Part shown: piece by piece, positions 7,299 through 10,739 of the stretch
Layout: every line of letters starts with the position of its first letter
Numbering within the stretch: the first letter of the stretch is position 1
Assembly (NCBI GenBank): GCA_029288485.1
Contig: JARIHC010000006.1
Span: 62,001 to 126,000 of the forward strand
Length of the DNA: 64,000 nucleotides
DNA from: Candidatus Saccharimonadota bacterium
GTDB lineage: Bacteria > Patescibacteriota > Saccharimonadia > Saccharimonadales > UBA4665
Direction: 5' to 3'
Translations under genes and position numbers: made by a program
Notes under the pieces: generated by a model
The model's input: only the letters and a program-made list of their open reading frames with translations
Told to the model about the DNA's origin: nothing
Databases searched by the model: none

Positions 7299-8972
7299 TC
7301 ACATTTTATCCGGTGATGCAATACCTAGCAGCTGTAGTCCGCCCTTGAGCGTATCGGCATATTTTGCTACTAGAGCTAGGCGAGCAGCCTGGCGCTCATC
7401 ACCGATTACGCGGTTGTTTTCATAAAAACGGTTGAAGGACTGGGCTAACTCGTACAGATAAGTGCAGACATGATGCGGCATGAGCTCGGCTGCAGCCTTG
7501 TCTACAATCTCTGGATACTCGCTAATTTTGCGCGCCAGCGTACGCTCGCCCGGCTGCAATTCGACAATTTGACCGTCCGCGGCACTAGCTTTTGCAAGAA
7601 TACTCCTGGCTCGGGCATGTGCGTATTGCAGATAAGGCCCGCTGTTTCCCTCAAGGCTAACCGATTCGTCCGGATCGAAAATCAGGTCGCCGCCAAGGCG
7701 ATTCTTTAGAAAAGCATATTTAATGGCTCCAAGAACAGTTTCGTTGTTTGGCGGCCTATCAGCGGCTGTGATAGCTTCGATCGTCAAGTCAATGACCGTA
7801 TCAGCCGGTATGATGTTTCCCAGGCGGCTACTCATCTTCACGCCGCCAGCAAGGCGCACCATGCCGTGCGGAATATGTGTCGTGGCCTCCACTAAATCCG
7901 GCAGGAAATGCTCCATGGCCTTGAGCACCACTACCATGTACTGCTCCTGCTCGTTAGCGGTTATGATAACTGACTTATCAAAGTTATAGTCCTCTTTTTT
8001 CTTAATCATCAGGCCAACTTCCTTGGCTTCGTAGGTTGGCAGGCCTTGGCTATTTATGAAGACGCGGGTATGCAGGTTGTATTTTTCGCCATCGAAAACT
8101 ATAGCACCATCGGATTCGGTAAAAACGTCACCAATGTGCTTTTTGACAGCCTCAAGGCCTAGTCCAGCGACTTTGCTCTCCGGATAATATTTTTCCATGT
8201 TGGCACCCAGGCGTTCATAGAATGCGTCAAAAGCTTCGTAGCTCCACTGTCGGCAAGTCCAGTATATTTTTGCGAAATCCGAGTCATGGTCATCGTCGGC
8301 ATGCAGTTGGTAGACTCGCTTATTAAGCTCGGTGATGTTTTTTTTGGCTGTTTCGTCCGTCTCATAAACATTATTGCCTTTGACATAAGCCGCGGCCAGC
8401 CAGGCGGACCTTTCCTGCGGCTCTACCCCGTCAAGTTTGGTCGGGTTTTCTCCCCCTAATCGTTCCAAGACCGCCCACATTGTCTTGCCAACATGCAAGC
8501 CAACATCACCACCGTAATTAACGCGGTGGACTTCGCCGCCGGACGCCTCCATAAGATTAGCAATAGCGTCGCCTACTATAGTGGTGTAGACGTGTCCGGC
8601 ATGCAGCATCTTAAACGGATTGGGGTCGGAATACTCGGCCACAACGGTTTTGCCGCTTAGTGATTGCTCTGGCTCAGTTTCAAGCGTCTCGATCAACGCT
8701 TCGTCGGTTAATTTCAGATTCATGAAACCAGGACCGGCCACCGAAACTTCGCTGACTTCGCCGGCTAACTTTTCACGAGTTTTCACGGCTAGCTCTTCGG
8801 CTATTTCACGCGGCGGCTTGCCTAACTGTTTAGCTAACTGCAGGGCTACATTGGTGGCGTAATCTCCAAATTGTTCTTCCGGCCTGGTCAACTCCACGCC
8901 CGCTTCAATGCCAAATAGCTCATTGCAAGCCGCAAACACCTCTTGGCTGATTTTTTGTCGCATCTTGATCAT
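7299..8972 (-). CDS. argS: Arginyl-tRNA synthetase
   Basis: A 557-residue class I synthetase that charges tRNA-Arg. The order is an N-terminal Arg-tRNA N domain (about 5-90), a catalytic core starting at SDPNPFKMLHAGH (HIGH-type HAGH at 124-127), a KMSSRLGN motif in place of KMSKS, and the C-terminal DALR anticodon-binding domain ending in LQLLGI. An alternative ATG lies three codons downstream. The start follows the argB-like stop by one base, so both genes are read from one transcript, which carries an arginine attenuator at its front. Confidence 0.96.
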   Translation of the reverse strand: MIKMRQKISQEVFAACNELFGIEAGVELTRPEEQFGDYATNVALQLAKQLGKPPREIAEELAVKTREKLAGEVSEVSVAGPGFMNLKLTDEALIETLETEPEQSLSGKTVVAEYSDPNPFKMLHAGHVYTTIVGDAIANLMEASGGEVHRVNYGGDVGLHVGKTMWAVLERLGGENPTKLDGVEPQERSAWLAAAYVKGNNVYETDETAKKNITELNKRVYQLHADDDHDSDFAKIYWTCRQWSYEAFDAFYERLGANMEKYYPESKVAGLGLEAVKKHIGDVFTESDGAIVFDGEKYNLHTRVFINSQGLPTYEAKEVGLMIKKKEDYNFDKSVIITANEQEQYMVVVLKAMEHFLPDLVEATTHIPHGMVRLAGGVKMSSRLGNIIPADTVIDLTIEAITAADRPPNNETVLGAIKYAFLKNRLGGDLIFDPDESVSLEGNSGPYLQYAHARARSILAKASAADGQIVELQPGERTLARKISEYPEIVDKAAAELMPHHVCTYLYELAQSFNRFYENNRVIGDERQAARLALVAKYADTLKGGLQLLGIASPDKM

Positions 8973-8973
8973 A

Positions 8974-9861
8974 TTATAGACTACTTACCCCATCATCAAC
9001 ATGGATCAAGGTACCAGCACCTTCATCGGTTAAAAGTTCCTTCATGAGGTCGTCTGGACTGGTTATAACAACGTCGTGTATACCCTCGTTAAGCAGGTTT
9101 AACGCTTCATTGACTTTGGGTATCATACCGCCATTAATCACGCCGCGTCTAATCAATGCTTGGGCTTGCGGGGCCGTCATATTAGCAATCCTCTCTGCGC
9201 CATTCTTAATAGCACCTTCTTTCGTGAGTGAGATGTGTTTAAGCACTCCTAGGTGGGCAGCTAAAGCTCCGGACGACATGTCGGCGTTAATATTTATTGG
9301 CTGGTTAATTGAACTGTTAGTTGCCAAATGTCCTATGCAGCTTACTACCGGCAAGATTCCGCGCATTGAAAGTCTCTCTATTCCCCAACTATCGACTTCA
9401 GTAATTTTATCGGTTGAGCCCAGGTCATTTGGATCGCTTAAAACACCTGCGAATATGCCGCGTACGCCTGCCGCATCACCGCCTTGATCAACTATAGCCT
9501 GGCTCAACAAAACGTTTGCCTTTAATAGTGCAGTTTCTACGGCTGGCATATGTTCTTGTCGTGTGATTCTTCTGCCGTTTACCTTATCGGTTGTTTGGCT
9601 GCTTGCGGCAAGTTCTCTATCTATTTGCTGACCGCCGCCGTGCACTACTACCGGCGACAAGCCAAGTACTTGCAAATTGACTAAACTTGTGACTGTAGTA
9701 CGGAGTAGTTCGGGGTCATCAATAATAGCACCGCCAACTTTTATAACAGCAAAACTCTGGCCCAGCTCAGCAAATTTATCCACGTATTTGTCTCCGTTCG
9801 GAAACTCTTCATAGATCTGCTGGCTTACCTCATTAATTTCAGGTTTTACTTTGAGTAACAT
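8974..9861 (-). CDS. argB: Acetylglutamate kinase-like amino-acid kinase (fused-NAGK/NAGS type, kinase part only)
   Basis: A 295-residue kinase that would phosphorylate N-acetylglutamate, the second step of arginine synthesis. Marks: AVIKVGGAII near 38-47, VVVHGGGQQID near 73-83, NINADMSSGALAAHLG, NGGMIPKV and the end DEGAGTLIHVDD. An N-terminal extension of about 35 residues before the AVIKVGG strand and the shape of the end resemble bacterial and fungal kinase domains normally fused to an acetyltransferase domain; that second domain is absent. It is followed at once by argS. A GGAG ribosome site precedes the ATG. Without other arginine genes in view, the actual substrate is not certain. Confidence 0.8.
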   Translation of the reverse strand: MLLKVKPEINEVSQQIYEEFPNGDKYVDKFAELGQSFAVIKVGGAIIDDPELLRTTVTSLVNLQVLGLSPVVVHGGGQQIDRELAASSQTTDKVNGRRITRQEHMPAVETALLKANVLLSQAIVDQGGDAAGVRGIFAGVLSDPNDLGSTDKITEVDSWGIERLSMRGILPVVSCIGHLATNSSINQPININADMSSGALAAHLGVLKHISLTKEGAIKNGAERIANMTAPQAQALIRRGVINGGMIPKVNEALNLLNEGIHDVVITSPDDLMKELLTDEGAGTLIHVDDGVSSL

Positions 9862-9875
9862 TTGTTCTCCATATA

Positions 9876-9919
9876 TTAAAAAGCTCCCTGGTTAGAAGGG
9901 AGCTGTCTGGAGCTTTTTT
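9876..9919 (-). terminator. Attenuator: competing terminator and antiterminator before argB-argS
   Basis: Read on the minus strand, AGCTCCC (9888-9882 pair region with 9904-9898) forms a seven-pair hairpin with a nine-base loop followed by TTTTTAA, a terminator. An upstream copy of the same arm, AAAAAGCTCC (9918-9909), can instead pair with GGAGCTTTTT and so bury the T-run, which is an antiterminator. The upstream copy begins six to seven bases after the leader-peptide stop, where a terminating ribosome would cover it. Confidence 0.8.
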
Positions 9920-9925
9920 ATTTAG

Positions 9926-9997
9926 CTAATTACAAGGACAACTCCCGTTAATACGTGGGCTCAGACGGCGGTAATTGACTTTAATAATTTCTAACAT
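9926..9997 (-). CDS. Putative arginine leader peptide
   Basis: A 23-codon open frame, ATG at 9997-9995 to TAG at 9928-9926. Residues 9-15 read YRRLSPR, with adjacent CGC CGT codons and a third CGT, then a tail with two Cys codons. It is placed directly before a terminator/antiterminator pair and the argB-like/argS genes. That is the layout of translation-coupled attenuation, where scarcity of charged tRNA-Arg stalls the ribosome and lets transcription continue. A TATAGT -10 box lies at 10015-10010. Translation is not proven; the Cys codons give a second, less likely sensing option. Confidence 0.7.
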   Translation of the reverse strand: MLEIIKVNYRRLSPRINGSCPCN

Positions 9998-10022
9998 AAA
10001 ACTTATCGTACTATATTACGTG

Positions 10023-10739
10023 TTATTTTACAATTATATTGTTGGTGTCTGCGGTCTCAGCGTCAATTCTCCCAGCGTACCGTAGCAGCCGGGCGCCGCG
10101 CCATAACAGACCGTACATGCTTATCAGCAGCACGAAAAATGACACAATTGTTATTAACATTTGCGGGTACTGTGCCGGATGCAGCAACCGGTCTGACATA
10201 TCAAATAACAAACCGCCGGGATTAGTGAGAATATCCCAGCTGTTCCATCTTAGATCACGGCCTACATACACCGCTACACAACTAACTAGCAGCGTAAAAA
10301 CTATCCATAGAAACGCAGATACGCGGCTAAGCCGGCGGCGCAACTGCAGATGTACCAGATAAAGACTGCTAAAGCCCAGAGTTACTCCGGTGTATATAAA
10401 TGAGGTTAGCATGACCGTATCGTATATTAAGTCGACGCGCTGCACATCTTGCAGGTGAATAAAATCGCTTATCATATAAAAACTATTGGGTAAAAAAACC
10501 AGCCACAATAAACTAAGACCCATAGCCTCCCAGCTGGACCATAATTTGCGCCTTAGAACACTCACTAAACGCACGGCGAAGATCAGCGGCAACCATGCTA
10601 AAAACAAGTTCCAAATTAAGTAGTTAAACTCTAAGCTGTTATTTCGCCAAGCGCCATATGCGAACAAGCCAACACTAACTAGTGTTGAAAACCCTAGCGC
10701 CAAGATGTATTGGTCGCGCGGCGACCGCCACCTAGCCAT
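10023..10739 (-). CDS. DUF1361 integral membrane protein
   Basis: A 238-residue protein with about six hydrophobic helices. It shows the DUF1361 hallmarks: NLFLAWLPLIFA in the second helix region, LSLLWLVFLPNSFYMISDFIHL with the conserved PN and D-x-H, and a later VYVGRDLRWNSWD loop. The family is a set of bacterial inner-membrane proteins without established function. It is the last gene before the argB leader, and its stop lies inside the leader promoter region. The upstream neighbour at 10763 is a small anchored protein on the same strand. Confidence 0.88.
   Translation of the reverse strand: MARWRSPRDQYILALGFSTLVSVGLFAYGAWRNNSLEFNYLIWNLFLAWLPLIFAVRLVSVLRRKLWSSWEAMGLSLLWLVFLPNSFYMISDFIHLQDVQRVDLIYDTVMLTSFIYTGVTLGFSSLYLVHLQLRRRLSRVSAFLWIVFTLLVSCVAVYVGRDLRWNSWDILTNPGGLLFDMSDRLLHPAQYPQMLITIVSFFVLLISMYGLLWRGARLLRYAGRIDAETADTNNIIVK

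Follow-up and report, generated by a model that had tools for sequence, protein, structure and literature searches.

The argB-argS operon in the window (the whole 64,000-nt stretch analyzed, G000:C9:62001-126000, from the 0.91-Mb genome G000) is very probably controlled by the leader preceding it, which we propose to be a ribosome-mediated transcription attenuator sensing charged tRNA-Arg. Size and gene content suggest that G000 belongs to the Patescibacteria, probably to the Saccharibacteria. The gene order on the minus strand is a DUF1361 gene, the leader, an argB-like gene, argS, an MscL-like gene, and an msrB-like gene, the last name being assigned by sequence inspection. The argB-like gene scores 147.6 bits with the argB profile, just below the cut-off of 151.3. 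A sequence-only reading of this DNA had proposed arginine-codon attenuation of argB-argS, based on a 23-codon leader with adjacent CGC-CGT codons and a further CGT, followed by two arms competing for a common partner. All of these parts are present (Table 1), and comparison with related genomes, in which the leader, the control codons, the arms, and the gene context are kept and the arms covary, argues for the proposed regulation.

Table 1. Features of the proposed attenuator and its surroundings (window positions; arms are labeled A, B1, B2, and C)
Feature	Position	Strand	Remarks
DUF1361 gene	10023-10739	minus	directly upstream of leader, same strand
-35-like TTGTAA	10028..10033	minus	17-nt spacer to -10; similar placing in 23/25 homologous leaders
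-10-like TACGAT	10005..10010	minus	ends 7 nt 5' of leader ATG; transcript probably near-leaderless
Leader ORF, 23 codons, MLEIIKVNYRRLSPRINGSCPCN then stop	9926..9997	minus	aligned RR-x-S-x-R-I-x-G homologues
Tandem Arg codons CGC CGT (putative control codons), codons 10-11	9965..9970	minus	conserved with synonymous changes
Third Arg codon CGT, codon 15	9953..9955	minus	
Arm A GGGAGTTGTC, leader codons 18-21	9937..9946	minus	B2 partner (predicted antiterminator)
Arm B1 AAAAAGCTCC	9909..9918	minus	C partner; first arm of the sequence-only reading
Arm B2 GACAGCTCCC	9898..9907	minus	contains AGCTCCC; terminator 5' arm or A partner
Arm C GGGAGCTTTTT	9878..9888	minus	terminator 3' arm plus T-run, or B1 partner
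Intrinsic terminator hairpin, 8 bp, 7-nt loop	9882..9904	minus	T-run 16 nt 5' of argB
argB-like gene, N-acetylglutamate kinase family	8974..9861	minus	first gene of proposed controlled operon
argS, arginyl-tRNA synthetase	7299..8972	minus	TIGR00456 above cut-off

The terminator that had been predicted from the second arm and the common partner is a hairpin, AGCTCCCT-TCTAACC-AGGGAGCT followed by TTTT, that lies 3' of the end of the leader ORF. It folds at about -13 kcal/mol, which was equaled by 1 of 200 shuffled sequences, and its stem (B2:C) is paired in 98.4% of cells across 25 sequences. A Shine-Dalgarno sequence (GGAGA) is found between the T-run and the argB ATG, and the gap of 16 nt that contains it leaves little space for a promoter 3' of the terminator. 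The operon must therefore be read via the terminator, unless a promoter escaped detection.

The strongest antiterminator is a 10-bp helix formed by GGGAGTTGTC (A) and GACAGCTCCC (B2), the 5' arm of which is within the leader ORF. As assessed by duplex energies, A:B2 (-19.0 kcal/mol) is followed by B2:C (-14.3 kcal/mol) and B1:C (-13.3 kcal/mol). None of 5000 shuffled leaders paired with B2 as well as A does, while the pairing of the B1 segment with C was matched by 132 of 5000 shuffles. A:B2 is mutually exclusive with the terminator, and a ribosome stalled at codons 10-11 would leave arm A free, whereas at the stop codon it would largely cover it. The antiterminator proposed initially, AAAAAGCTCC:GGAGCTTTTT, does exist as a conserved helix (91.5% of cells paired), but the main antiterminator is A:B2, with its leader-internal arm. 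The mechanism proposed from the sequence was thus right in its logic and incomplete in its anatomy, and AAAAAGCTCC:GGAGCTTTTT could serve to lock A:B2 as a pseudoknot. Two likenesses are apparent among the arms, since A resembles C and B1 resembles B2, and A:B1 pairing is also possible.

ArgB is rare in the order to which G000 belongs, being present in 7 of 392 genomes (E ≤ 1e-20). The sequence-only reading had made its case depend on relatives that keep argB-argS. The nearest of these with an unfused argB directly before argS, G030, belongs to another genus (40% ArgB identity) and displays the order DUF1361, leader, GNAT, argB, argS; its leader, MDFTVSPTTNRRSPRIPGGCPCN followed by stop, its arms, and its terminator are all homologous to those of G000, and the proposal thus passed its own test. 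No such comparison could be made for G012, which carries an argB-acetyltransferase fusion as part of a larger arg operon, as only 90 nt of contig precede that operon. Leaders were also identified in G019 (MNNQTSIIIVRRSSRISGSCPS, then stop), 5' of argH and an arg operon with argS last, and in G122, from another family (MSKFTDNFEARRSSRIHGSWAFSC, then stop), before GNAT-argG-argH-argS. A covariance model built from these four leaders (G000, G030, G019, and G122) and run on the 392 genomes of the order identified about 20 strong members from nine or more families, with E below about 1e-8. Every strong member has an aligned leader carrying RR..R (R..RR in G120) with R-I a few codons later, and the leader frame is kept across a one-codon indel and synonymous changes in the aligned ORFs. 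The search model included the leader sequence, and the RR conservation among its matches is thus partly ascertainment. On the other side, the arms of G168, and in part those of G166 and G173, pair poorly, and G028 is without RR. Genes behind the strong members are argS with or without GNAT or a GNAT-like gene, argH-argG-argS, argG-argH, or argB-argS, and a second group has an Asp/Glu-racemase-like or AstE/AspA-like gene downstream; argS, argG, and argH were assigned partly by eye, via similarity to profiled examples.

Promoter-like hexamers accompany these leaders, with a -10 box 4-13 nt (mostly 6-7 nt) 5' of the leader start in 23 of 25 sequences. Their mean score, taking the best-scoring start where several were possible, is 11.1, compared with 4.5 at random positions in the same loci. 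Given this short distance, the mRNA on which the leader is translated is probably near-leaderless. Most relatives in which argS has no leader of this kind display a TATAAT-like box near the argS start and no such terminator. In most argB-less members of the family (L010-L038), argS lies directly behind DUF1361 with a TATAAT-like box by its ATG, i.e. as a near-leaderless argS. Wider searches were negative. Outside the order, the refined model, R2, gave no convincing Arg element among the 272 genomes of the phylum to which it was applied, a one-mismatch pattern search of the phylum gave four matches besides G000, which is the level of the reversed-pattern control, and a contig search for ArgB homologues returned two distant proteobacterial loci that were uninformative.

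Covariation was analyzed in the 25 sequences, with arms cut by position and anchored by hand in the block alignment. A:B2 is paired in 96% of cells, and 7 of its 10 pairs show double (compensatory) changes, e.g. U-A to G-C, or C-G to G-C or U-A. None of 500 shuffles matched its paired percentage, its double changes, or its covariation score, and no slide of the arms came close. B1:C displays three double-changed pairs. Considering that A and C are alike in sequence, the sites at which they differ reveal which of them B1 follows: in 22 of 22 such cells, which are not independent since related sequences share changes but are uniform in direction, B1 forms Watson-Crick pairs with C, against only wobbles or mismatches with A. 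A:B1 pairing as the main function of B1 was ruled out by this discordant-site test. In G171 and G165, B2 carries U, C carries G, and B1 carries C, which indicates that B1 is not a copy of B2. The presence of the leader sequence in the search model does not account for the compensatory changes, and the covariation of both helices thus suggests that A:B2 and B1:C are both under selection.

The two helices cross, with spacers of 16-28 nt (L1), 0-4 nt (L2, between B1 and B2), and 5-14 nt (L3). B1 therefore abuts B2 while the remaining spacers vary, which suits coaxial stacking in an H-type pseudoknot. We infer that A:B2 and B1:C coexist and perhaps form an H-type pseudoknot antiterminator.

Folding with a masked ribosome is consistent with such a switch. 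A ribosome placed on either Arg codon of RR gives A:B2 a probability of 1.0 in both G000 and G030, up to the point at which the terminator 3' arm is almost finished; placed at the stop codon, it gives the terminator a probability of 0.998-0.999 in both. The full RNA of G030 stalled at RR keeps antitermination (0.99), whereas that of G000 shifts at equilibrium to the terminator (about 0.9-0.97) unless B1:C is added. Once the G000 leader is fully transcribed, nested A:B2 on its own falls 1.4-2.5 kcal/mol short of the terminator fold in stability, and antitermination would therefore need kinetic trapping or a pseudoknot. By a rough estimate, the pseudoknot energy beats the nested optimum in 21 of 25 sequences. 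With a stalled ribosome, several sequences, G030 among them, reach their minimum energy in the nested A:B2 fold already.

We infer the stalling and the direction of control, and propose the following sequence of events. RNA polymerase would start at or just before the ATG of the 23-codon leader. When Arg-tRNA is ample, the ribosome would reach the stop codon, where it would cover most of A together with the A-rich half of B1; B2:C would then pair, leading to termination 16 nt before argB. With Arg-tRNA in short supply, the ribosome would stall at the tandem Arg codons, leaving A free to pair with B2 once B2 is made. The emerging C would then be left with B1, in the loop of A:B2, as its sole partner, and the resulting H-type pseudoknot would hide C and the U-run, allowing the polymerase to continue into argB-argS.

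Elements of similar design, with leaders rich in codons for other amino acids, were found among the weak matches of the same models; such matches were discounted as noise except where the leader codons fitted the gene. A candidate proline attenuator, L125 (G050:C25:6220-6309), consists of a PTPP leader and a terminator before proB-like and proS genes. Two Cys-rich leaders are present in G047, CCC and CCSC (L108, G047:C17:1210-1302, and L112, G047:C21:5563-5653). The CCC leader is 5' of a PIG-L gene and cysS, and the CCSC leader is 5' of a CysM-like synthase with a rhodanese domain and a sulphur transporter. Related GAWxxSxYxxE leaders with Trp codons occur in G046, G071, G178, and G005 (L107, L103, L105, and L109). 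That of G046 precedes an operon running from a PPDK-like gene to trpS, and the remaining ones precede two kinds of operon, encoding a 277-aa protein and a luciferase-like protein, or a 306-aa protein and a racemase-like protein. In L116 (G187:C60:5627-5721), an IIVLV leader precedes ilvB (acetolactate synthase) and ilvA (threonine ammonia-lyase). Downstream genes fit the encoded amino acid, through its metabolism or its charging, although the genes behind some Arg elements (racemase-like and AstE-like) are less obvious. When seven sister elements were folded, all seven formed an A:B2-type helix when stalled with the terminator 3' arm unmade, and the terminator with the ribosome at the stop codon; for the full RNA, the nested model returns most of them to the terminator. 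This match between codons and operons, which was noticed by inspection rather than in a blind survey, is the best evidence that the codons would act as the sensor.

L101 (G000:C8:36285-36359), in the genome of the window, is a short ORF ending in LVVVVESR, with a similar terminator, before a gene for a 104-aa protein. No amino-acid gene is recognizable downstream of this VVVV leader, which may be of a valine type or may be due to chance.

The 'on' state could be simpler than a pseudoknot. The same ribosome-coupled switch might rely on either A:B2 or B1:C alone as a simple nested antiterminator, with the second pairing a by-product of the repeated GGAGCU/AGCUCC, and this alternative, which differs from our best explanation solely in the anatomy of the 'on' state, is a realistic if minority possibility. 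It would account for the likeness of the arms and the potential for A:B1 pairing, and it fits the elements, such as G030, in which A:B2 alone is the minimum-energy stalled fold. The behavior of B1 argues against it, i.e. that B1 follows C in all discriminating cells, is not a copy of B2 in G171 and G165, and stays next to B2 as coaxial stacking in a pseudoknot would want. Considering these findings, we favor the pseudoknotted antiterminator.

What positions the ribosome might also be something other than the codons. Nascent-peptide arrest sensing free arginine could be read from the conserved RR-x-S-x-R-I-x-G of the leader peptides, but appears improbable, because the C terminus is variable (CPCN, WAFSC, and GARID), some leaders end in RRSTRI or RRTRI, and sister elements built in the same way carry codons for different amino acids. 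In addition, the SRI-G stretch overlaps or abuts the RNA arms, which can explain its conservation. An arrest peptide with a conserved CPCN end had been considered and was dropped, since further leaders do not conserve that end and the ORF pattern RI-x-G-x-CPCN-stop therefore matched two genomes only. It is even less probable, to the point of being barely credible, that the hairpin is an ordinary (bidirectional) terminator of the DUF1361 gene accompanied by a chance ORF. That gene does end at 10023, just upstream and on the same strand, and the A- and T-runs would make a hairpin on both strands. However, the T-run ends close to argB with the Shine-Dalgarno sequence in the gap, the leader ORF, promoter-like site, and A:B2 are kept in other families, also where DUF1361 is not upstream, and most relatives without the leader have DUF1361 followed by the promoter-like site of argS and no such terminator. 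Equally slim is the prospect of a T-box, a riboswitch, or a protein-dependent attenuator. Arginine genes are controlled by T-boxes in some other bacteria (PMC1262725), but an Rfam search of the window and 20 homologous loci returned tRNAs only, with no T-box or other family, and the conserved region is the coding leader, with no further conserved domain seen upstream.

Proteobacterial ribosome-mediated attenuators control the trp, his, leu, thr, ilv, and pheST operons. The leader described here shares with them a short ORF with tandem cognate codons, competing arms, a U-run, and the read-through expected upon starvation; it differs in the amino acid that it would sense, arginine, in its phylum, in its probably near-leaderless ORF, and in the extra B1:C helix that implies a pseudoknotted antiterminator. 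Leader-peptide attenuators are known from Proteobacteria and Actinobacteria (PMC1262725), to which hisS of Firmicutes has been added (PMC2965389). In the actinobacterial study (Seliverstov et al. 2005, PMC1262725), the attenuators of trp, trpS, and leuS include cases in which a leader peptide precedes an aminoacyl-tRNA synthetase gene, and the LEU element combines a leader peptide with a pseudoknot, although in its base stem the Leu codons pair with the Shine-Dalgarno box of leuA. That study found no arginine attenuator, and in the leader-attenuator literature that we found, arginine is named only for T-boxes (PMC1262725). The cysS uORF motif uORFC-8-2 of Rhodobacterales (PMC8632094) and the hisS leader of Bacilli (PMC2965389) likewise place a leader peptide and a terminator before a tRNA-synthetase gene. 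They differ in amino acid and in lineage. To our knowledge, neither shares any sequence with the present leader. T-box leaders of arginine genes have the same signal, uncharged tRNA-Arg, and the same output, but they bind the tRNA directly, whereas the sensor proposed here is the translating ribosome. In the open literature, subscription papers and most preprints aside, we found no description of leader-peptide attenuation in Patescibacteria or Saccharibacteria.

We rate as evenly balanced the chances that these elements form a lineage-specific family, i.e. a network with which reduced-genome Saccharibacteria sense amino acids in general (Arg, Pro, Cys, Trp, and Ile/Val), with near-leaderless promoters and H-type pseudoknot antiterminators, in control of small operons in which a residual biosynthetic gene often stands together with the cognate tRNA synthetase. 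A covarying family of this kind in Patescibacteria would mean that bacteria with reduced genomes and a dependence on hosts have kept the ability to sense single amino acids. Because leader codons name the limiting amino acid, nutritional dependence would be readable from DNA, and uncharacterized neighbors (acetyltransferases, racemase-like proteins, and AstE-like proteins) would be linked to that amino acid. If confirmed, the pseudoknotted antiterminator would represent a novel construction of the 'on' state of an attenuator.

There is no argG match in G000, G030, G016, or G121, and these bacteria are thus probably unable to make arginine by the usual route. This makes a lone argB-like gene under arginine control metabolically odd in G000, which counts against the proposed regulation, whereas control of argS by Arg-tRNA would be sensible for an arginine scavenger. 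The argB-like kinase of the window is an orphan in its argG-less genome, and elsewhere in the order it is fused to GNAT (L039, L005, and L006). Arg-type attenuators also lie before a racemase-like gene (L083, L094-L096, and L100), for which the nearest NCBIfam family is cysteate racemase, below cut-off, and before GNAT and AstE/AspA-like genes (L084, L097, and L099). Both sets of genes are candidates for arginine-linked functions.
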